From assembly GCA_002011125.2 (NCBI GenBank), contig MTMF02000009.1, forward strand, positions 1,704,989-1,768,988: DNA of 64,000 bases, in the 5' to 3' direction. How positions within the stretch are numbered: the stretch's first letter is position 1; every line of letters starts with the position of its first letter. The notes under the pieces are model-generated. The model did no database searches. It was not told the origin of the DNA and was given only the letters and a program-made list of their open reading frames with translations. The stretch comes from Candidatus Hydrothermarchaeum profundi (GTDB lineage: Archaea > Hydrothermarchaeota > Hydrothermarchaeia > Hydrothermarchaeales > Hydrothermarchaeaceae). Made by a program: the position numbers and the translations under genes. Below are positions 47,079 to 58,340 of the stretch, piece after piece.

Positions 47079-49484
47079 CTATTTAAAAGTTGGTGTGTAC
47101 CTCTTAAGAAGAAGAGAATTAGTAACCACTGACACAGAACTCATAGCCATGGCCGCAGCAGCAATTGCAGGGTGTAATAAAATACCCCAGAACGGGTAAA
47201 GCGCTCCAGCCGCCACCGGGATCCCTAGAGTGTTATAGAAGAACGCCCAGAAGAGGTTCTGCTTTATTTTAGTTATCGTCTTCTTGCTAAGCTTAATAGC
47301 CTTAACCACATCTCTAAGATCATCTTTTATAAGCACAATACCCCCTGCCTCTATCGCGACATCAGTCCCCGATCCAATGGCGATGCCAATATCAGCCTGA
47401 GCTAAAGCTGGAGCATCATTTATGCCATCACCTACCATGCCGACGAACCTGCCTTCCTCCTGTAACTTTTTAATCTCTCTCGCCTTATCCTCCGGTAATA
47501 CCTCTGCTAGAACCCTCTCTATTCCCAGTTGAGCGGCTATAGCTCTAGCAGTCCTCTCGTTATCCCCGGTAATCATTATAACCTCTATGCCCATTTTCTT
47601 CAACTCACTTACTGCCTCTTTAGAATACTCTTTCAGGGTATCTGCTACCGCTACAATACCTACAGCTTTATTATCAGTTGCAATTAGCATGGCTGTTTTA
47701 CCCTCGCTCTCCAGTCTACTCATCTTCTCCTCTAGATGCTCGAACTCAATGCCGTTGTCTTTAAATAGCTTCCTTGTCCCTAACAGTATACGTTTACCAT
47801 TGTAATTAGCCTCAACTCCATGTCCGGGTATAGCAAAGAATTCTTCAGGATCTTCAACCTCTAGCCCCTTATCTCTTGCTCCCCTAACTATAGCTTCGCC
47901 CAAGGGATGCTCTGAGCCTACCTCTGCGATAGCCGCTAACCTCAACACCTCGTTTTCATCAAACCCATCAATAGATATAACATCTGTAAGAGAGGGCTTT
48001 CCTTTAGTAAGTGTGCCAGTCTTATCAAGTACAATTGTATCCATCTTATATGCGTTCTCCAGCTGCTCGCCTCCTTTGATTAGAATCCCGCTCTCTGCTC
48101 CTTTGCCAGTGCCCACCATAATCGCCGTCGGAGTAGCGAGTCCCAATGCGCATGGACATGCGATAACTAAAACCGCAATCATTGTGGAGAAGGCGAATAT
48201 GAAGTACTTATCCCCAATAAAATACCATGCCAAAAATGTTAGAACCGCTATGCCTATCACCACCGGAACGAAAACCCCTGCGACTTTGTCAGCCAATCTT
48301 TGGATAGGAGCCTTAGTTCCCTGAGCCTCTTCGACCAACCTAATTATCTGCGCTAAGGCCGTATCTGATCCGACCTTTTCAGCCCTAAATTTGAAAGTAC
48401 CAAACTTATTTATCGTAGCTCCTATAACCTTATCTCCCACCTTCTTCTCTACAGGTATTGATTCACCGGTTAACATAGACTCATCAACAGTAGAATGGCC
48501 CTCCACTATGACTCCGTCTACGGGTATTTTCTCACCTGGTCTAACCACGATAATGTCCCCTACCTCCACCTCTTCAACCGGTATTTCCTTTTCAACTCCA
48601 TCTCTTATAACTCTCGCGGTCTTTGCTTGAAGTTCCATAAGCTTTTTTATAGCCTCGCTAGTACGCCCTTTCGCTATGGATTCCAGCATTCTACCCAAAA
48701 GTATGAATGCAATAATGAGGGAGGAGGTCTCATAATATACATGCCCTGGAAATATTCCCGGAAAGAAAGTTACACCAACGCTATAAAAATAAGCAGCCGA
48801 GGTACCCATAGCTATTAAAACATTCATGTCAGCGATCCTATTTCTAAGAGCGATGTAAGAACCCTTATAAAACTGATATCCGGCTATAAACTGAACTGGA
48901 GTAGCTAAAAGAAATTGTATAAAGGGATTTCGGAGTAAGGGGATACTTATTCCGATATAGCTTCCTACGCTCCCTATAAGTATAGGTATTGAGAGTGATA
49001 TCGCTAGAGCAAAGCTTCGCTTTTGTCTACTTATCTCTTCTTCTCTAGCAATCTTCTCAACATCCTCCTCTAAAACCTTAAACCCTCTCTTCTCTAAAGC
49101 TCTTCTAACTATCGTAAAATCTAGGGTAGGTAAGAACTCGACCATGATACTTTGAGCACTTAGATTAGACACAGCCTTTACGACTCCCTCAACACCCATT
49201 GCAGCTTCTTCTATTTTAGCTGCAGATGCTGAGTCTACCATTCCTTCAACCTTGAGCCGGGCTTTCCTAGTGGGTACACTATATCCCACCTCTCTGACCT
49301 TCTCTATTAGCTGTAGGAGATCTACCTTGCCTTCATCGTATTCAACAGTAGCATTTTCAGCACTAAGATTGACATTAGCCGAGCTAACCCCCTCCACCTT
49401 TGAGAGCGCTTTTTCTATAGTTTGAACGCATGTTGCACAATGCATCCCAATTATTGGCAAGATTACCTTTTTCATTTCCATCAC
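47079..49484 (-). CDS. copA: Copper-transporting P1B-type ATPase
   Basis: 801 residues. Heavy-metal domain 1 has the intact GMHCATC motif; domain 2 (about 75-145) has lost its CxxC ([11 protein letters not shown]). Eight membrane helices follow, with the metal-site [11 protein letters not shown] in helix 6, the phosphorylation motif DKTGTLTKG, the TGES actuator loop, SEHPLGEAI and [14 protein letters not shown]. The CPC motif plus the C-terminal N and MxxSS residues ([24 protein letters not shown]) indicate Cu(I) export (P1B-1). It heads the operon with MerB-like, thioredoxin and YHS genes and faces the TRASH regulator at 49633. Confidence 0.95.
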
Positions 49485-49632
49485 TCAATAATGCAAATTC
49501 TTTCTAAATATGAATAATATAACTTATTATATTACTTAACATCGCTATTTTATATGTTTTATTTACTTTACTGCTCCAAAAGCGAAAGATATTTATTGAA
49601 AAAATAACCATTTTGGAAAAAGGTGATGAAGT

Positions 49633-50220
49633 ATGCATCTTGACATGATAGATCTAGAAATAATAAGAATCCTACAATCTAACGCCCGAACCCCTGTCCT
49701 CGAGATCTCTAAGAAGCTTGGACTAAGCAGACCTACTATTAAATCAAGAATCGATAAACTCAGAGAGGAGGGAGTAATTAAAAAATTTACAATTGTAATA
49801 GACCGCGACGCTGTAGTTAAGAACATTCTCCTACTCCTTAGGATGAAGATAGATGACAATAGAATACTAGAATCACTTAAAGACGAGGAAGAGATAATAG
49901 AGATATACGAAACGATGAACGAGAAGAATATAGTATGCAAAGCTGTTGTCAGGGACATCGACGAGCTTAGAGAATTCATGGATAAACTTAACAAGATGGG
50001 GGTTAAAGAAGTGGAGTCTTCCATTGTTCTTAAAACCCTCAAGGAAGAACACGAGGCAGACATAGGGCCTGAGATAGGCATTACTGTTGAATGCGAATAC
50101 TGCGGCAAGGAGATAACAGGCACTCCATATAAGTTTAAAATATACAATAAAGAACATTATCTCTGTTGCCCAGTATGCTTGAAAAGTTATAAGAAAAAAA
50201 TGAGCTACGCAAAAAATTAA
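49633..50220 (+). CDS. TRASH-domain copper regulator (CopR/CopT-like, Lrp-type HTH)
   Basis: 195 residues. The AsnC/Lrp winged helix (residues 3-55, SNARTPVLEISKKLGLSRPTIKSRIDKLREEGVI) is followed by a ligand-domain remnant and a C-terminal TRASH metal-binding domain (CEYCGKEI...HYLCCPVC). This arrangement is that of the archaeal copper regulators CopR/CopT beside copA. ATG behind AAGGTGATG. Divergent from copA, so it most likely controls the copA operon. Its last codon overlaps the end of the convergent radical SAM gene. Confidence 0.88.
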   Translation: MHLDMIDLEIIRILQSNARTPVLEISKKLGLSRPTIKSRIDKLREEGVIKKFTIVIDRDAVVKNILLLLRMKIDDNRILESLKDEEEIIEIYETMNEKNIVCKAVVRDIDELREFMDKLNKMGVKEVESSIVLKTLKEEHEADIGPEIGITVECEYCGKEITGTPYKFKIYNKEHYLCCPVCLKSYKKKMSYAKN

Positions 50221-51422
50221 GACTCATGCATCGTAGGCCTAGAATAATTTGACACTCTTAGCTCAGATAGCACTACTCTATTGTCCCATGTCTTTTCTAA
50301 ATTGCCTGGCTGATATACACAGTAAGGGTCTTCAGCAAGATAATCACCTGTTAGGGCATATGCCCTGGACCTACTCCCCCTACAGATATCGTTGAATTCA
50401 CATACCCTACATCGCCCCTTAAGCTTCTCAGGGTTTTGCATATCTTTCAAAATCTTGGAACTCCTGTATATTTCAACTAAGTTTCCATATTTTACATTGC
50501 CAATTCCGATAGGTAAGAAGCTGCTAGGGAACACCTCTCCCCTATTTGAAACGAAAATACCCTTCCCATAGCTCTTATCTTTATGCTTAACAGCTTCATT
50601 CTCTCTAGCATTTGAGGTAGGAAAATAACTTTCCCTCAGCCTTTTTTTCAGGTATCTATAAAGCTTACCATGTTTAATTATCCCTTCATCAACTTCTCCC
50701 TCCTCAATCTTTCTTCTCAGTACTGCTACTCTCCTATAAGGCTCGCTCCCTGCTATCGCGTTTATGGGGATATTCGAGACTTTCATAGCGTCGTATATAA
50801 AGTTGAAAACATCTTCATATTCCTGAGGAGTAAGGGCGTATTCTTCCTTAGCTCTCCCAGTAGGTATCAGCATATATAGATACCATCCAACCGCACCCAA
50901 CTTTTCACTTAAAGACAATATCTCCGGCAATTCCTTAGCATTAAATTTAGACACCGTAGTCATAAGCCGAAATGGTAACTTGATCTCTCGCATATATTTG
51001 ACGGCTTTTACCATAATGTTAAAGGTACCCTTTACCCCTCTGAAAGAGTCATGTAACTCTGCGTTAGGGCCGTCGATACTCATCGCCACTACTTCTACAC
51101 CTGAGTCCTTTAACCTCCTTAAGTTTTCCCGGTGCAAGAGAGGGGTCGTACTTGGAGCAATGGTAACTCTGACTCCTAGGTCTCTGGCATATCTAATGAT
51201 CTTAAAAATATCACTACGTAAAAGGGCATTCCCCCCTGTGATCCTCAAAATTGGGTATTCCCTGCCGAATTCCACCATTTGATCTACTAGCCGATATGCC
51301 TCGGTAGTAGTAAGTTCATCCCTATCTGGGTTCTTTTTTGCCGATGCTTTGCAGTGCTTACACGCTAACCCACAGGCTATAGTGGATTCCCACATTATAG
51401 ATACAGGATTTAAGATTTTCAT
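50217..51422 (-). CDS. Radical SAM/SPASM protein (TIGR04053/NirJ-like)
   Basis: 401 residues. The [4Fe-4S]-SAM motif CGLACKHC (CxxxCxxC) is at about residue 17, preceded by the IMWESTIACG pattern typical of heme-related NirJ/AhbC/AhbD and of the TIGR04053 group. GGNALLR and MSIDG are the next family motifs. The C-terminal SPASM-like part has GRCRVCEFNDICRG and, later, EDPYCVYQPG, enough for one auxiliary cluster. Substrate unknown: heme or peptide modification are both possible. It is preceded by a coupled 36-codon ORF. Convergent with the copper regulator. Confidence 0.8.
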   Translation of the reverse strand: MKILNPVSIMWESTIACGLACKHCKASAKKNPDRDELTTTEAYRLVDQMVEFGREYPILRITGGNALLRSDIFKIIRYARDLGVRVTIAPSTTPLLHRENLRRLKDSGVEVVAMSIDGPNAELHDSFRGVKGTFNIMVKAVKYMREIKLPFRLMTTVSKFNAKELPEILSLSEKLGAVGWYLYMLIPTGRAKEEYALTPQEYEDVFNFIYDAMKVSNIPINAIAGSEPYRRVAVLRRKIEEGEVDEGIIKHGKLYRYLKKRLRESYFPTSNARENEAVKHKDKSYGKGIFVSNRGEVFPSSFLPIGIGNVKYGNLVEIYRSSKILKDMQNPEKLKGRCRVCEFNDICRGSRSRAYALTGDYLAEDPYCVYQPGNLEKTWDNRVVLSELRVSNYSRPTMHES

Positions 51423-51925: not shown

Positions 51926-52717
51926 TTAATGCATAGATAGGTCTATTATATCAAAAGTTATACCCTCGTCTTCAAGCTTCTTTAATAACTCAGGTATCTC
52001 ATCGTCAGCTCCAACGACTATAGGCGAGATTCCATGATGACTAGCTTCAATTACTGCCTCTTTTGCTCCAAAAAAAGCTTTTGGCCTTTTATTAATATTT
52101 TTTAAGGATATAAGAGCTTCCACTCCAATGGCGCAAGTGAAATTGCTCCTTTTTACTACTTTTTTTAGCTTATCATAGTCTACATTCCTAGACCCCCCCT
52201 CCTCTATCCTGGGTATTCTAAAAATTTTTACTGTACCTTTTTTTAGCTCGATAATTCCTTTTAAAGATTCTACGCCAACATCCTGTCCTTTTTTAGCGGC
52301 ATGAATTGTAGTTCCAGTGGCTTTGGAATCCTTATCACCCGCGTAGAGAAGGCCATTTTCCATCCAAAGATTTACCTTTTGATTTTCTATCAAATCTTGA
52401 GCAGCAATAGCTGTGAACACTCTTACATCGCTAACCACATCTTCCAAAACAAATCTGAGATAGCTCTTTATCTCTTGGGCTCCTTTTATTATCTCTTCAA
52501 CCCCTCTCTGAGTAACTCGGTAGTTTAAAGGTCCTTCAGATAACACCATGCCTTCCTTTAACAGCTGCTTGAAATATTCTGATACCGCCTGAGGCGTTAT
52601 ATTAAGCTTGTCCGCTATATCTGCCTGTCTAACATTAGGTTGATTGGCAGCGATTTCAACCAAGATTTGAAATTTAGTGTTGATCATGCCTTCCAAATTC
52701 CTACGCTTCCTTGACAT
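51926..52717 (-). CDS. Winged-helix transcriptional regulator with uncharacterised C-terminal domain
   Basis: The N-terminal winged helix (about 10-75) is clear: VRQADIADKLNITPQAVSEYFKQLLKEGMVLSEG, followed by the wing NYRVTQRGVEEI. The remaining 180 residues form an alpha/beta domain (ALISLKNINKRPKAFFGAKEAVIEASHHGISPIVVGADDEIPELL) that I recall from conserved archaeal regulators of unknown ligand. I place the start at the ATG of residue 7 of the longest frame; CTATTTAAAT lies about 30 bases upstream. It diverges from the peptide/radical SAM pair, with 190 bases between, and could regulate it. Confidence 0.75.
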   Translation of the reverse strand: MSRKRRNLEGMINTKFQILVEIAANQPNVRQADIADKLNITPQAVSEYFKQLLKEGMVLSEGPLNYRVTQRGVEEIIKGAQEIKSYLRFVLEDVVSDVRVFTAIAAQDLIENQKVNLWMENGLLYAGDKDSKATGTTIHAAKKGQDVGVESLKGIIELKKGTVKIFRIPRIEEGGSRNVDYDKLKKVVKRSNFTCAIGVEALISLKNINKRPKAFFGAKEAVIEASHHGISPIVVGADDEIPELLKKLEDEGITFDIIDLSMH

Positions 52718-52865
52718 AAAATTAAATTTATACAAATCAATTTAAATAGATTTTCCAGAGAAAAATATATGTAAAATTACGTATTATATAAGACAAAAAT
52801 ACAAAAAGAAGCTAAATTATGCTTTAATAAAGAAATATTGATTATATAGTAAAGTATTATTGAGA

Positions 52866-52882
52866 AAAAATTTAAATATAAC
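52866..52882 (+). promoter_or_regulatory. TATA element of the peptide-radical SAM operon
   Basis: AAAATTTAAATATAACC ends about 45 bases before the TTG start of the small peptide, predicting a leader of about 20 bases that contains the full GGAGGTGAT ribosome site. Confidence 0.55.
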
Positions 52883-52926
52883 CTGTTTTGTCTCATTCAT
52901 TTTGTGAAAAAATGGAGGTGATTGGA

Positions 52927-53043
52927 TTGAAAACGCAGGAAAGAAATGTTATATCAATTCGACTTGACTGTGCAACTTCAGCCAACGGTCTATCCCACTA
53001 TATAATCTATGGAGACCTTCCAAAAGGTAAAGCTCCACTATAA
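52927..53043 (+). CDS. Candidate radical-SAM-modified precursor peptide (CbpA-like)
   Basis: A 38-residue peptide, too short for automated calling. The start is TTG at 52927, four bases after a perfect GGAGGTGAT; an in-frame ATG at 52912 lacks a ribosome site. The sequence is a leader of charged residues (KTQERNVISIRL), one Cys at position 15, and GLSHY at 21-25, then a Gly/Pro/Lys tail. The combination of a single Cys followed by GLSHY next to a radical SAM/SPASM enzyme matches my recollection of the CbpA family of short peptides paired with CbpB enzymes. It is 23 bases upstream of such an enzyme in the same direction. Product and function are unknown. Confidence 0.7.
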   Translation: MKTQERNVISIRLDCATSANGLSHYIIYGDLPKGKAPL

Positions 53044-53066
53044 ATTAACTGAGGTCGGGGAAGATT

Positions 53067-54428
53067 ATGCACTATAATACAGGGAGTAATCCACGAGTAA
53101 CCTTCTGTGATATAGATTCCAATTGGAACCTAGCAATAGACCCAGATACAATGTTCTGGGCCTTAATTTCAAAAAACAAAGATCTAGACGTAGTTCTCAG
53201 TGACGAAGTATTTCCTATGTACGAGAAATACCGAGAAGAACTCGCTAATGAAATGAATAAGTTCAGATTCGAAACCAACCTAAGTGCGGTATATGTTAAC
53301 CCAACCGACAGATGCAATGCAAACTGCACTTACTGCTACCTCCCTAAGAACCATAAGGAAAGAGGCCTTCAGATGAATGGCGAGCAACTTCGAGAAACTA
53401 TGACCAGAATTGAAGAACATTTCAATGAGAACAGGCTTAATGGGAGAAAACCAGTAATAGTATTTCACGGAAGCGAACCATTATTAGTTAAGGACCTCCT
53501 AGAGCAGACGATAGAAGAATTTCGAGATACATTCCACTTCGGCATCCAGAGCAATGCATTAGAGCTGGAGGAAGACGACACAGAATTCATCAGGAGATAC
53601 GGAATAAACATTGGAATATCCCTTGATTCTCATATCCAAGAGATAAACGACTCAGTTCGCAGAGTGGCAGGAAATAGCGGAACCTATGAGAAAGCGGTGA
53701 AAGCAATAGACATGCTAGAAGGGTATGAAGGTCTGAATGTCGTTACAACTATCACAAATCGTAACGTAAAACATCTCCCCGGCCTAGTCGAGTTTCTTTA
53801 TAATAAAAAGGTACCAGCTATACTTATGAATCCTGTCAGGGGCACTCAGAAGTCCGCAAGACAGCTTCGCCCAGAATCAAAAGATTTAACAAAATATTTC
53901 ATCGCTGCAGTAGAAAAGGCATGCGAGCTGTCAAAGAAGGATGGGAGGCAGATAATTATAGGAGACTTCGCTAATATCCTATTAGGAATAGTAGCGCCCC
54001 TCGGCAGAAGATTGATGTGTGATATCACGCCCTGTGGAGGGGGGCGATGTTTCTTTGCAATAACCGCTGATGGACGTATGTTCCCTTGTGGAGAGTTTAT
54101 AGATATGACGGAGTTCTACGCAGGAAATATCTTCAAAACCCCTATATCAGAGGCAATGGAATCAAAAGCTTTTAAGAATGTGAGGTCAAGAATCGTAGAG
54201 AAGATAGAATACTGCAGTACCTGCGCTTTTAGGAATATATGTGGCGCTCCATGTCCCGCAGAAGTTTACTCCGAGAAGGGAGATCTAAATCAGAGATCTC
54301 CTTACTGTGAATTCTATGAAGAACTCATTAGGTATGCGTTTAAAGTGATAGCCGAGGATAAGCTAAAGTATCACTTGAGAGAAGAAGCGCTGAATAGCCT
54401 AGAATACAAATATAGTCTCATAGCATAA
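53067..54428 (+). CDS. Peptide-modifying radical SAM/SPASM enzyme (CbpB-like)
   Basis: 453 residues. An N-terminal region of about 80 residues (WNLAIDPDTMFWALISK) resembles peptide-recognition extensions of RiPP maturases. The radical SAM motif is CNANCTYCYLP near residue 88, followed by FHGSEPLL and GISLDS. The SPASM domain has CDITPCGGGRC, MFPCGEF, CSTCAFRNICGAPCPAE and YCEFYEE, giving about eight cysteines for two auxiliary clusters. Enzymes of this build install thioether, C-C or related bonds in short peptides. The only candidate substrate is the 38-residue peptide just upstream; dsrC follows behind its own promoter. Confidence 0.85.
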   Translation: MHYNTGSNPRVTFCDIDSNWNLAIDPDTMFWALISKNKDLDVVLSDEVFPMYEKYREELANEMNKFRFETNLSAVYVNPTDRCNANCTYCYLPKNHKERGLQMNGEQLRETMTRIEEHFNENRLNGRKPVIVFHGSEPLLVKDLLEQTIEEFRDTFHFGIQSNALELEEDDTEFIRRYGINIGISLDSHIQEINDSVRRVAGNSGTYEKAVKAIDMLEGYEGLNVVTTITNRNVKHLPGLVEFLYNKKVPAILMNPVRGTQKSARQLRPESKDLTKYFIAAVEKACELSKKDGRQIIIGDFANILLGIVAPLGRRLMCDITPCGGGRCFFAITADGRMFPCGEFIDMTEFYAGNIFKTPISEAMESKAFKNVRSRIVEKIEYCSTCAFRNICGAPCPAEVYSEKGDLNQRSPYCEFYEELIRYAFKVIAEDKLKYHLREEALNSLEYKYSLIA

Positions 54429-54482: not shown

Positions 54483-54526
54483 GCACCCAGGCTAATCAAC
54501 ACTATCTAGCGGATGAGGTGATATGC

Positions 54527-54865
54527 TTGGCAAAATATCTTAAAGTAGGCGGCAAGAAACTTGAACTCGACGAAGACGGTTTCTTAGTGGACTGGGAACA
54601 GTGGGATGAAGAGGTTGCAAAGGCTTTCGCTAAGCAAGATGGAATTGAGTTGACTGACGAGCACTGGGAAATTATCCATTTCCTTAGAAAGTACTATCTA
54701 GAGTATAAGATAGCGCCTCCAATTAGAATGCTTGTAAAGGAGGTCAAAAAAGCACTAGGCCCCGAGAAAGGTAATCTAAAATATGTTTATAAGCTTTTCC
54801 CTGGCGGCCCTGCAAAGATGGCTTGCAAATATGCTGGACTACCAAAGCCAACTGGCTGCGTATAA
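54527..54865 (+). CDS. dsrC: DsrC-type sulfur carrier protein
   Basis: DsrC is the physiological partner of dissimilatory sulfite reductase and carries sulfur on its C-terminal arm. This 112-residue protein ends MACKYAGLPKPTGCV: the two cysteines are separated by ten residues and the last is penultimate, as in true DsrC rather than TusE, which keeps only the last Cys. The core (GFLVDWEQWDEEVA, ELTDEHWEIIHFLRKYY, FPGGPA) is complete. The start is TTG four bases after GAGGTGAT; the GTG at 54518 lies inside that ribosome site. Its own promoter separates it from the radical SAM gene. DsrAB is not in the window. Confidence 0.93.
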   Translation: MAKYLKVGGKKLELDEDGFLVDWEQWDEEVAKAFAKQDGIELTDEHWEIIHFLRKYYLEYKIAPPIRMLVKEVKKALGPEKGNLKYVYKLFPGGPAKMACKYAGLPKPTGCV

Positions 54866-54991
54866 AGAATAATATAACTACTTTTTTTTATCTATTTAGA
54901 AATCTATCAAATTAAGCCTAAAAAAATAATTGATTAGGCATATTTTTTATAAGAAAATTATTTATTATCTTTCAATTAGCTTATTTATTAA

Positions 54992-55444
54992 ATGAAAGTT
55001 AAAAAAATTTTGTTGCCATTAGAATCCTCTTTAAAAGCTTCACCAATAGGCCCTGCCTTCGAAATTGCTAAAAAAGGTAATACCGAAATTATAGCTCTCG
55101 ATATAGTGCCAATAAATTCCTCGGCCGGCTGGAATTATAAAGAAATTTTAAAACGTATGAAAAATAAAAAGTCAGAGCCCTTGTTAAATGAGCTTGAAGA
55201 ATGGGGAAAAAGGATAGGTGTAAAAGTAAAGAAGGTTATAGAGTCCGGGTCACCAACTAAAAAGATAATTGAAGTAGCTAAAAGAGAAAAAGTAGATCTT
55301 ATCATAATAGGCGAAACGAAGGGATTCCTTGGAGTAAATCCACATATGTATTTAATAATTAAAAAAGCCTGCTGCCCAGTATTAGTAATTGGAGAAAACA
55401 GCCGCAGAGTACCATGCAAAGCATGGAATATTGAATTCCCATAG
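54992..55444 (+). CDS. Universal stress protein (UspA family)
   Basis: 150 residues with the Usp alpha/beta fold: KKILLPLESSLKAS at the N-terminus, then VDLIIIGETKGFLG and CCPVLVIGEN at the C-terminus. The ATP-loop pattern GxxGx9GS/T is not well kept (GETKGFLGVNPHMY), so nucleotide binding is doubtful. A TATA-like TTTTTTATAAG lies about 40 bases upstream and the dsrC terminator T-run precedes it. Possibly regulates or protects the neighbouring sulfur module; no direct evidence. Confidence 0.75.
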   Translation: MKVKKILLPLESSLKASPIGPAFEIAKKGNTEIIALDIVPINSSAGWNYKEILKRMKNKKSEPLLNELEEWGKRIGVKVKKVIESGSPTKKIIEVAKREKVDLIIIGETKGFLGVNPHMYLIIKKACCPVLVIGENSRRVPCKAWNIEFP

Positions 55445-55455
55445 ATTAAATGCGG

Positions 55456-55488
55456 CTACTGCATCTACCTCTGAGAATGCAGCGGTAG
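55456..55488. terminator. Hairpin between convergent genes
   Basis: CTACTGCAT and ATGCA-gcg-GTAG pair around a 12-base loop between the ends of the universal stress gene and the minus-strand sulfur operon. It may act in both directions; no long T-run accompanies it. Confidence 0.35.
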
Positions 55489-55500
55489 ACTTTCATAGTT

Positions 55501-55866
55501 TTAAAATTCAGTATCCGCTGAATTAGACTTTGCTTTAACTCTCTCTACTACCCTTAAAGCTCTATCTACGCAATTCTTTATTACCTTAGCGGGAGCAGGT
55601 CCTGGTACGCCTCTAACAGGTATACCCTTATAGAATATGATAATAGTAGGAGGCACATATACCCTCTTTTGTAGAACAAGTTCCCTCTCAGAATCATAAT
55701 CTACATAGACAGATTTTATTCTCCCTTCATATTCTGAGGAAACCTCCTTTAACAACTCCGCAACCTCAACGCAAGAAGGGCTCCAATCTGCCTTAAAAAA
55801 GACAAGTACAGGTATCTCAGATTCGGTTACCTCTTTATCCCAGTTTTCAAAATCAACTTTCCTCAT
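55501..55866 (-). CDS. Thioredoxin-like protein with one active-site Cys
   Basis: 121 residues of thioredoxin fold (VPVLVFFKADW, then VYVPPTIIIFYKG with the cis-Pro). The usual WCGPC is WSPSC, so only the second Cys remains and ordinary dithiol exchange is not possible; a persulfide- or ligand-handling role fits a sulfur operon. The start is placed at the ATG at 55866 (MRKVDFENW), just after the stop of the cytochrome-like gene; a longer frame overlaps that gene. Last cistron of the dsr-like operon. Confidence 0.7.
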   Translation of the reverse strand: MRKVDFENWDKEVTESEIPVLVFFKADWSPSCVEVAELLKEVSSEYEGRIKSVYVDYDSERELVLQKRVYVPPTIIIFYKGIPVRGVPGPAPAKVIKNCVDRALRVVERVKAKSNSADTEF

Positions 55867-55873
55867 AGTAGTC

Positions 55874-56182
55874 TCAAAACACTGGCTGCTGTTTAGCTCC
55901 AACATAGGCATGACACTTATTACAGTAATCAGCTACCTCATGGCAATTTGCACATATTTCGATATCTACTTTCTTTGTTTCAGGCTCGAATAATTCAGTC
56001 ACCTTAGATGCAGTTTTTACGGTTCCTGTTGTAATACTCCCATGATTTGCCCTATACCAATCTAGCCCTCGCTCAGTATGGTACTTAGGGGGATTAACAT
56101 CCTCAGGCTTAGGCGGTTTCTCTATTATCCCCACACAGCCGCTGACAAGAAAGAAACAGATTATCATAATCAATAGCCTCAT
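55874..56182 (-). CDS. DsrJ-like lipoprotein cytochrome c with two heme motifs
   Basis: 102 residues. A lipoprotein signal peptide (MRLLIMIICFFLVSGC, lipobox LVSGC) exports it; two CxxCH motifs, CANCH and CNKCH, sit near the C-terminus. Position after dsrK and an exported multiheme cytochrome role point to DsrJ, which normally has three hemes, one with unusual Cys ligation; here one site is missing and the spacer contains ANHGS. ATG at 56182 follows GAGGTG by six bases; the GTG at 56191 lies within that site. Confidence 0.7.
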   Translation of the reverse strand: MRLLIMIICFFLVSGCVGIIEKPPKPEDVNPPKYHTERGLDWYRANHGSITTGTVKTASKVTELFEPETKKVDIEICANCHEVADYCNKCHAYVGAKQQPVF

Positions 56183-56192
56183 CTTCTCCACC

Positions 56193-57608
56193 TCACTTCA
56201 TCACAATCGCCTTCCCAACCAAGTCATGGACCCCGCCTACTTGGACTTCAAGCTTATAGTGCGACATAACTAAGGGAAGCTGGGCTTTATCTATAGCGCA
56301 TGGTGCAGCTAGATAGTTAGCTCCTGTGCTCCTCACTGCTTCAGCTCTGGGCATACCTCCCTTCATCCTGAGCTCCATTATCTCTTCAGTAAGAAGACCT
56401 CCACCGCCGCCGCAACAGAAAGTTTTCTCCTTAATTGTATTATCTGGCATCTCTCTAAAATCATTAACACAGCTTTTTATTATGTACCTCGGTTCTGAGA
56501 TCAGATTTCCTGCCCTTGCCATATTACATGGATCATGCAAAGTTACGATAACATCATCATTCTGACTTTTATCAAGCTTTATCTTGCCTTTTCTAATCTT
56601 ATCAGCAGTGTATTCCAGTATGTTACAATATTTAAAGGGCAAAGGTCCATTCATTTTCTCCATAAACTGCCTCGCTGCTCTCCAGGCATGCCCACACTCT
56701 CCGATTATAACCAGCTTTGCGTCTATCTCCTTTGCCTTGTCAACTATTCTCTTATTTATCCACTCGATGTCGATATAAGATTGAAAAAGACCGAAGTTTG
56801 CTGCCTCACTAGCATATGTGCTCATTGTCCAATCTACCCCCAATGCGTTCATTACTTTCGCCACCCCTATCATAGTATCAGTATTCGTAAAAAGGTCGGC
56901 AGAGGGAGGAACGTATAGGATATCCGCCTTCTCTTTATCCACTGGGATCTCGATATCTATATCTTCCATCTCCTTGACATCTTCTATCAAGAATTCACAG
57001 GTGCTTTTAAATGCTTTATCTGGAATGCCAAGGTTATTGCCAATATCATACACTTTCGCTATGACCTCTGTGATATACTTGGTCGCAAGCCCTAGGTTAG
57101 CTAGTATCTCTCTACCCGCCATAGTTATTTCTGCCTGATCTATACCATAGGGACAAAAAACAGAACAACGCCTGCATTCACTACACTGATAAAAATATTT
57201 GTACCATTCATTTTCGATTATATCATTTGTGAGATCCGACGCTCCCACCAAAGAGCCAAATATCCTGCCGCTGATAGTAAAATATCTCTTGTATACTTTT
57301 CTTAGGAGCTCAGCTCTACCTACGGGCGTATTCTTGGGATCCCCGGTGCCGAGATAATAATGGCATTGCTTAATGCATGCCCCACATCTGACACAAATAT
57401 CTAAATAAAGTTGCAGTGATTTCCGGGTTTTCCTAAGTTCATCAAGCTTCCTTATAGCTACTTCAGGCCTGTGCTCAGGAGGCAACTCGGGGTAGGGTAT
57501 TTTTACTTTGAGCCACTTTATATCCTTCTCCTTTGCTCTGTGCATAATGTAGTTTTCCGCTGCTGCTGGTTGAAATTTTACGTCGTAAATGTTTTTCATT
57601 TCAGCCAT
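56193..57608 (-). CDS. dsrK: DsrK-like (HdrD/HmeD family) iron-sulfur subunit
   Basis: 471 residues. Two ferredoxin-type clusters (CVRCGACIKQCHYY and CSECRRCSVFCPYG) are followed by a variant first CCG region (IIGECGHAWRA) and a canonical second one (HDPCNMAR...FCCGGGGG), the site of the catalytic noncubane cluster in HdrD-like proteins. The ECGHAWR segment is characteristic of DsrK. With DsrM it moves electrons between the quinone pool and the DsrC disulfide/trisulfide on the cytoplasmic side. It lies 6 bases after dsrM and 2 before the DsrJ-like ORF. Confidence 0.9.
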   Translation of the reverse strand: MAEMKNIYDVKFQPAAAENYIMHRAKEKDIKWLKVKIPYPELPPEHRPEVAIRKLDELRKTRKSLQLYLDICVRCGACIKQCHYYLGTGDPKNTPVGRAELLRKVYKRYFTISGRIFGSLVGASDLTNDIIENEWYKYFYQCSECRRCSVFCPYGIDQAEITMAGREILANLGLATKYITEVIAKVYDIGNNLGIPDKAFKSTCEFLIEDVKEMEDIDIEIPVDKEKADILYVPPSADLFTNTDTMIGVAKVMNALGVDWTMSTYASEAANFGLFQSYIDIEWINKRIVDKAKEIDAKLVIIGECGHAWRAARQFMEKMNGPLPFKYCNILEYTADKIRKGKIKLDKSQNDDVIVTLHDPCNMARAGNLISEPRYIIKSCVNDFREMPDNTIKEKTFCCGGGGGLLTEEIMELRMKGGMPRAEAVRSTGANYLAAPCAIDKAQLPLVMSHYKLEVQVGGVHDLVGKAIVMK

Positions 57609-57614
57609 GAGTTC

Positions 57615-58340
57615 TCACTCCTCTACCTCAATACTATGGGAGCCCTTCTCGAAGTAGTGAATCCTAGTAGGGCTGAAGAACACGCCTCCAAGATGCATTA
57701 TCTTGCTGAAGGGTAAAATCATGAGAAGCAACTGCACTAAAAAGAAGTGAGTGAGAAACCAGAAACTATCAGGTATAACGGAAGGATTCGGCTGCAAGGT
57801 TATTAGTCCCATTATCATTGTCTTCACATCAAATACGTAGACTCTGGAAAAAAACTTTAGAATTAGCCCAGTGCTTGCTATGGAAATCAGGAGTAGGAGG
57901 GCAAAGTAATCTGCGAAGTTAGATATGAATCTGAGATCAGCAAAAACTAGACGCCGTAATAATAGGTATAAGAGAGGAACTAGGATTAGTAGGCCAGCGT
58001 ATATCCCCACTGTTTGAAAAGCCATGACCCATGATGGAACAGGATACAAAAAATATCTTAAATGTCGCAATAGGATTAGTAAGAAGCATATATGGAATAT
58101 CCATGACCCCGCCCACAGAATATAATTGCCAGGAAACCTCAAAAGGCTTCTAAACAATGCAACATCTAATAAAACTCTCGCTATGGATTTTCCAGGCGAA
58201 TCCTGCCCAGGGAAAACAGGGATCTTTACCGGGGAGCGTATCGTCGCCCATGCGGCAAGCCTGTAAATAAATCCTACTGTGAATATGGTAATAGTGATAT
58301 AAGGAAGATAAACCCCAATAAAACTAGCAATAACACCCAT
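57615..58340 (-). CDS. dsrM: DsrM-like (NarI family) membrane cytochrome b subunit
   Basis: 241 residues with about five to six membrane helices. His residues that could bind two b hemes occur in WIFHICFLLILLRHLRYF and in FLTHFFLVQLLL and KIMHLGG, the pattern of NarI/DsrM proteins. The C-terminal FFSPTR segment lies next to the DsrK contact in homologues. ATG behind AGGAGGTGA. A TATA-like ATATTTTATATTC sits in the 80-base gap before it, so it may have an internal promoter besides the operon promoter at 60.4 kb. Confidence 0.85.
   Translation of the reverse strand: MGVIASFIGVYLPYITITIFTVGFIYRLAAWATIRSPVKIPVFPGQDSPGKSIARVLLDVALFRSLLRFPGNYILWAGSWIFHICFLLILLRHLRYFLYPVPSWVMAFQTVGIYAGLLILVPLLYLLLRRLVFADLRFISNFADYFALLLLISIASTGLILKFFSRVYVFDVKTMIMGLITLQPNPSVIPDSFWFLTHFFLVQLLLMILPFSKIMHLGGVFFSPTRIHYFEKGSHSIEVEE

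Follow-up and report, generated by a model that had tools for sequence, protein, structure and literature searches.

The closest described system is the CbpA/CbpB pair, defined by the models TIGR04164 (cobo_pep) and TIGR04163 (rSAM_cobopep), which the locus studied here resembles in having a precursor gene directly upstream of the enzyme gene and a C...GLSHY core in the precursor. The names of the models suggest that their curators already had a cobalamin connection in view. Our literature search found no paper mentioning TIGR04163 or TIGR04164, and those text matches to 'CbpA' that were checked proved to be DOI strings of journals. Neither a radical SAM enzyme nor a peptide is mentioned in a study of cobamide genes co-written by a TIGRFAMs author (PMC6461909). 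CbpA/CbpB is known in the form of curated models but is uncharacterised. Further described relatives are the PapB-type ranthipeptide maturases (NF047865) and CteB (PDB 5wgg/5why); these SPASM enzymes link the thiol of a Cys to a second residue within a short precursor.

We describe a candidate precursor-enzyme pair found in a 64,000-nucleotide stretch of DNA from Candidatus Hydrothermarchaeum profundi (contig MTMF02000009.1), referred to below as the window; all coordinates are counted from its first letter.

The precursor peptide gene and the CbpB enzyme in the window

The putative precursor is a 38-AA product with a TTG start, encoded on the forward strand at positions 52927–53043 (TTG at 52927, the stop ending at 53043; translation MKTQERNVISIRLDCATSANGLSHYIIYGDLPKGKAPL). 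Direct reading of the letters places a Shine-Dalgarno sequence, GGAGGTGAT, at 52914–52922 (+), and a gap of 23 bases separates the stop codon of the peptide gene from the ATG of the enzyme gene at 53067. A GGAGG-type site is also present at most of the homologous peptide open reading frames. The peptide carries the motif IR-L-D-C15-ATSAN-GL-S-H-Y, with residue 15 as its only cysteine. A longer, 51-AA alternative starting from an upstream TTG (52888) was present in the mechanical list of open reading frames. The 38-AA form is favoured by the position of the Shine-Dalgarno sequence and by a TATA-like TTTAAATA (52871–52878), from which a transcript start near 52900 is predicted. The TATA-like element belongs to a putative promoter region (52833–52879, +) with operator-like half-sites AATATTGA ... 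TTATTGAG, and the region resembles a block found in a relative from the same phylum (G015, see below).

The enzyme gene (53067–54428, +) has an ATG start and encodes 453 AA. Its product matched the CbpB model TIGR04163 with 545.4 bits (cut-off 375, E = 8.1e-164, residues 19–434), and Pfam recognised the Radical_SAM (PF04055) and SPASM (PF13186) domains. The second-best family, PapB NF047865, was reached with 136.6 bits against a cut-off of 340. Eleven cysteines are invariant across 61 aligned enzymes, namely C83, C87 and C90 of the CX3CX2C radical SAM cluster motif (53313–53336, +) and eight of the SPASM region (C318, C323, C341, C383, C386, C392, C396 and C414; 54018–54308, +). The latter are enough for two predicted auxiliary [4Fe-4S] clusters, and their spacing is that of the anSME SPASM domain. 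The AlphaFold model of the enzyme (pLDDT 90.9) has an N-terminal piece of three strands and one helix ahead of the barrel, and the nearest PDB folds are CteB (5wgg/5why) and anSMEcpe (4k37). A read-through peptide-enzyme model from an ANME locus left the peptide part unstructured, with pLDDT below 50. The genome of the window contains one copy of CbpB.

A PHROGs search with the 38-residue peptide gave zero matches. Its sole NCBIfam match was TIGR04164, at 21.0 bits (E = 1.7e-4) and below the cut-off of 35. TIGR04164 was also the best family for all nine further peptides tested. Six archaeal-clade peptides, that of the window among them, and two bacterial ones (31.1 and 34.9) score below the cut-off, and both of these bacterial peptides adjoin clear CbpBs. 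Annotation pipelines that use TIGR04164 therefore probably miss the archaeal and some of the bacterial peptides.

Most of what the initial annotation had read from the locus is borne out by these data: the TTG peptide of 38 residues with a perfect Shine-Dalgarno sequence 23 bases before a SPASM enzyme (the reading of 52914–53067), the CbpB layout of that enzyme, and its 'about eight extra cysteines', which are exactly eight. The proposed membership of the peptide in the CbpA family stands as far as the family matched is concerned, but not at the level of the model cut-off. The RiPP-type layout of precursor and maturase gained support as well, as the window pair has what defines a RiPP system, a dedicated precursor encoded with its modifying enzyme, and this precursor is conserved upstream of cbpB.

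Conservation and distribution of the pair

Among 70 loci from four lineages, which include three duplicates of the same records, 69 have a peptide open reading frame with GL[STA]H[YF] upstream of cbpB, and the one exception has a truncated cbpB. Away from cbpB in those loci, the same motif was found only 4 times among 1.2 million six-frame residues, so its position upstream of the enzyme gene is more than chance. Alignment of 28 peptides showed Arg12, Cys15, Gly21, Leu22 and His24 to be invariant; Tyr25 seldom varies, with F tolerated, Ser23 of the core tolerates T or A, and the spacing from Cys to GL ranges from 5 to 7. Conservation of Cys15 and GLSHY, which the initial annotation had named as a check of its reading, is confirmed by these counts.

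CbpB scores above the cut-off were obtained in 11 of 23 genomes from the window's own phylum, in ANME-1 (7 genomes among the 58 of that class), in the Desulfobacterota group (37 of 394 genomes) and in Chloroflexota (2 of 251). The CbpB tree consists of two main clades, archaeal and bacterial, with a long branch between them. The archaeal clade holds the window's phylum, ANME-1 and one Chloroflexota enzyme, and identity of the window enzyme to those of ANME-1 is up to 55%. The Chloroflexota genome in question (G504, loci L088/L128) lacks the riboswitch described below; its enzyme pairs weakly with that of the window, and among the peptides its own comes closest to the window peptide (52%). A transfer between domains is possible for this pair.

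Judged from sequence, the window pair is a real archaeal member of the CbpA/CbpB system, and a new one.

Association with cobamide synthesis

A covariance model search detected the cobalamin riboswitch (RF00174) directly upstream of cbpA in 36 of 38 bacterial loci (10/10, 18/20 and 8/8 in the three sets). The two riboswitch-less loci, G336 and G164, both have cbpAB inside long cbi/cob operons, which accounts for the lack of a riboswitch of their own. In both, cbpA-cbpB lies between cbiC and cbiX, with cbiA, btuR, cobD, cbiMNQ, cbiD, cbiE and cbiL around; the order in G164 is cobD-btuR-cbiA-cbiC-[cbpA-cbpB]-cbiX-cbiM-cbiN-thiC-cbiQ-cbiO-cbiD-cbiE-cbiL-cbiF-cbiG-cbiH ... cobU-cobS. Elsewhere the pair has as neighbours cbiB (G088), cbiH and cbiG (L030), or cbiA, cbiC and cbiL (L027). 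In the last of these, a 9-kb part of one contig contains four cobalamin riboswitches, one of which precedes cbpA.

Cobamide genes also adjoin the pair in archaea. Five distinct ANME-1 loci, which are most of the ANME-1 loci, have cobT within 20 bases 3′ of cbpB, and in the ANME-1 locus L019 cbiMNQO adjoins cbpB. A special CobT paralogue in ANME-1 was considered and rejected, as the adjacent CobTs form an ordinary ANME clade. Divergent from cbpA in ANME-1 is a gene for a protein with a ribbon-helix-helix and an AIR-synthase-like (PurM-type) domain (L021:4777–5790, −), likewise found in L019, L022, L023, L036 and L124; its product may be a repressor that senses a ligand and acts on the cbpAB-cobT operon. 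In G005, from the window's own phylum, a NicO-type nickel/cobalt transporter gene is divergent from cbpA.

Overall, only 13 of 66 loci have B12 genes near cbpAB. Around thiC, used as a control, the same threshold gave no B12 gene in any of 11 loci. At the level of whole genomes, cbiD was present in 36 of 37 genomes with cbpB and in 165 of 357 without it (394 Desulfobacterota-group genomes; Fisher p ~1e-10, a test that ignores the relatedness of genomes). Conversely, cbpB occurs in only 36 of the 201 cbiD-bearing genomes of this sample, and the system is therefore accessory, not essential, to cobamide synthesis.

The window itself gave no cobalamin riboswitch at the gathering threshold and has no B12 gene within ~7 kb of the pair; the scan of archaeal-type loci, 16 with that of the window counted, likewise gave no riboswitch. 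Outside the window, the same genome contains a full cluster for anaerobic cobamide synthesis, cbiMNQO-cbiX-nicO-cbiC-cbiD-cbiET-cobT-cbiL-cbiF-cbiG-cbiH-cbiJ-cobD. Gene order in bacteria and in the methane-oxidising ANME-1 archaea, together with the bacterial riboswitches, points to cobamide synthesis, not sulfur metabolism, as the conserved association of the pair.

Neighbouring genes in the window

The neighbours named in the initial annotation were found as claimed. On the reverse strand, divergent from cbpA, lies the gene for a winged-helix regulator with a C-terminal DUF7839 domain (51926–52735, −; PF25211, 96.6 bits). A DUF7839 gene is beside cbpA in two genomes, that of the window and G015, with the same divergent orientation, and beside cobT in three relatives of the phylum that lack cbpB (G016, G017 and G018; loci L218, L219 and L220). 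In four or five other genomes of the phylum it is beside dap genes. The region upstream of cbpA in G015 contains a block matching that of the window, with a perfect inverted repeat, AATATTGA-N8-TCAATATT, followed by TTATTGAGA.AAATTTAAATAT. As this operator-like block precedes cbpA in two relatives and is absent before cobT or cbiM, it hints only weakly at a DUF7839 operator common to these promoters. The gene contexts are only suggestive, and leave the DUF7839 protein as a candidate archaeal cobamide-responsive regulator; our literature search found no paper on DUF7839 or an archaeal CblR.

Downstream, dsrC (54518–54865, +; TIGR03342, 166.5 bits) starts 90 bases after the end of cbpB and is judged to be outside the system. 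Two further Dsr proteins are encoded in the region that it opens (54518–58340): DsrK, at 523 bits, and a DsrM-like protein that is short and scores 154.7 bits, below the cut-off. Genes for a thioredoxin and a small lipoprotein with CxxCH lie between these Dsr genes. Together they make up an archaeal Dsr electron-transfer set.

On the other side, a second radical SAM/SPASM protein is encoded at 50217–51422 (−), with 405 bits to TIGR04053 (cut-off 395) and strong similarity to the heme b synthase AhbD. At 47079–50220, a gene for a copper-type P-type ATPase (minus strand) is divergent from that for an Lrp-type regulator, whose C-terminal tail is Cys-rich and metal-binding-like.

Proposed mechanism and alternative explanations

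We propose that the pair probably makes a B12-repressed, intracellular RiPP-type peptide that serves de novo cobamide synthesis. The short open reading frame is very probably translated and the CbpA peptide would be the substrate of CbpB, as the conservation of precursor and enzyme indicates. CbpB would recognise its substrate by the R-x-x-C motif together with the charged leader, and the 5′-deoxyadenosyl radical would act on the conserved core, C15-x(5-7)-GL[ST]HY, most likely giving a thioether or other cross-link in which Cys15 and the GLSHY turn take part. This chemistry, proposed from homology to the nearest characterised relatives, CteB and PapB, is a step for which we find the case evenly balanced. 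The product would be needed under B12 scarcity. In bacteria the pair is under cobalamin riboswitch control; the window pair would probably be controlled by the divergent DUF7839 regulator. As for its function, the modified peptide with its Cys and His might handle a corrinoid intermediate or cobalt, in the latter case perhaps on the way from CbiMNQO uptake to CbiX chelation. This role is tentative, and we regard it as the most plausible one because of the position of the pair between cbiC and cbiX and the CbiM/NicO transporters adjoining it in several loci.

That the product stays inside the cell is suggested by the neighbourhoods of the cbpB loci, which share no conserved gene for an exporter, a protease (leader peptidase) or immunity. 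The same observation argues against a secreted product, for example an antimicrobial or a cobalt-scavenging metallophore. Export is the rule among known radical SAM RiPPs, metals can be bound by C, H and Y, and some loci have metal transporter genes nearby, yet we consider secretion unlikely.

PQQ and mycofactocin are examples of small molecules cut out of peptides, and CbpB could similarly convert a portion of CbpA into one, which CobT would then attach to the cobamide as its lower ligand. The cobT gene directly after cbpB in ANME-1 and the presence of CobT in nearly all cbpB genomes are in line with this. In addition, a lone ThiC homologue is present in most cbpB genomes; it scores as ThiC and not as BzaB (the models used separate no BzaF), so there is no evident sign of a known anaerobic route to benzimidazole. 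However, the cbpB-adjacent CobTs share the ordinary ANME clade with one non-adjacent CobT, further processing genes are not conserved, and the G164 operon itself contains a ThiC-like gene. Many anaerobes also take free bases, e.g., adenine, which leaves no source to explain. We regard a RiPP-derived lower ligand as improbable, and likewise the broader reading, in which part of the modified CbpA would be a piece of the cobamide (e.g., the lower ligand or its precursor, attached by CobT).

Genes for isozymes of B12-dependent enzymes, too, are under the control of cobalamin riboswitches (PMC3766115), and the modified peptide could by analogy activate a B12-dependent enzyme, or replace its cofactor, when B12 is lacking. 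This, too, is improbable: the carriers have the B12 pathway, with cbiD in 36 of the 37 cbpB genomes of the Desulfobacterota-group sample, the pair is found inside biosynthetic operons and no isozyme gene accompanies it. Least likely of all, to the point of being very remote, is the sulfur or redox role that the initial annotation had drawn from dsrC, in which the modified peptide would have DsrC, or the Dsr complex of the downstream genes, as its partner; the dsrMK-type set follows cbpB and dsrC in the window and many carriers elsewhere are sulfate reducers, but none of the other loci among the 66–70 examined has dsrC next to cbpB, the pair also occurs in ANME-1 genomes, and B12 riboswitch control and embedding among cbi/cob genes argue for other biology.

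If the proposed role in cobamide synthesis is true, a B12-switched peptide-modifying pair would be an unrecognised actor in a pathway regarded as complete. The pair is carried by ANME-1 and by sulfate reducers with a heavy dependence on cobamides, so that its product may matter for the ways in which anaerobes acquire cobalt or assemble and handle corrinoids. Were part of the peptide to enter the cobamide, cofactors of the vitamin B12 type would have a component that originates from a peptide. The cobamide link opens the family to specific tests.

Comparison with known systems

The bza genes of anaerobic B12 lower-ligand synthesis are comparable to cbpAB in being accessory in anaerobic cobamide producers and in adjoining the B12 pathway, but they represent other chemistry and other families (ThiC paralogues) and involve no peptide. 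With anSME (4k37; TIGR03942) the window enzyme shares a SPASM layout for two auxiliary clusters, at a TM-score of 0.83 on the target. It differs in scoring 114.7 bits against the TIGR03942 cut-off of 349, and the substrate of anSME is a sulfatase, whereas that of CbpB would be a dedicated small peptide. CteB, which forms thioethers, is the nearest solved fold, at ~19% identity to the window CbpB; ranthipeptide precursors have repeated Cys motifs, while the window CbpA has a single Cys. The closest counterpart remains CbpA/CbpB as the curated models define it; the window pair differs in a precursor scoring below the cut-off, as two bacterial ones also do, a locus without a riboswitch and an enzyme placed in the long-branch archaeal clade.
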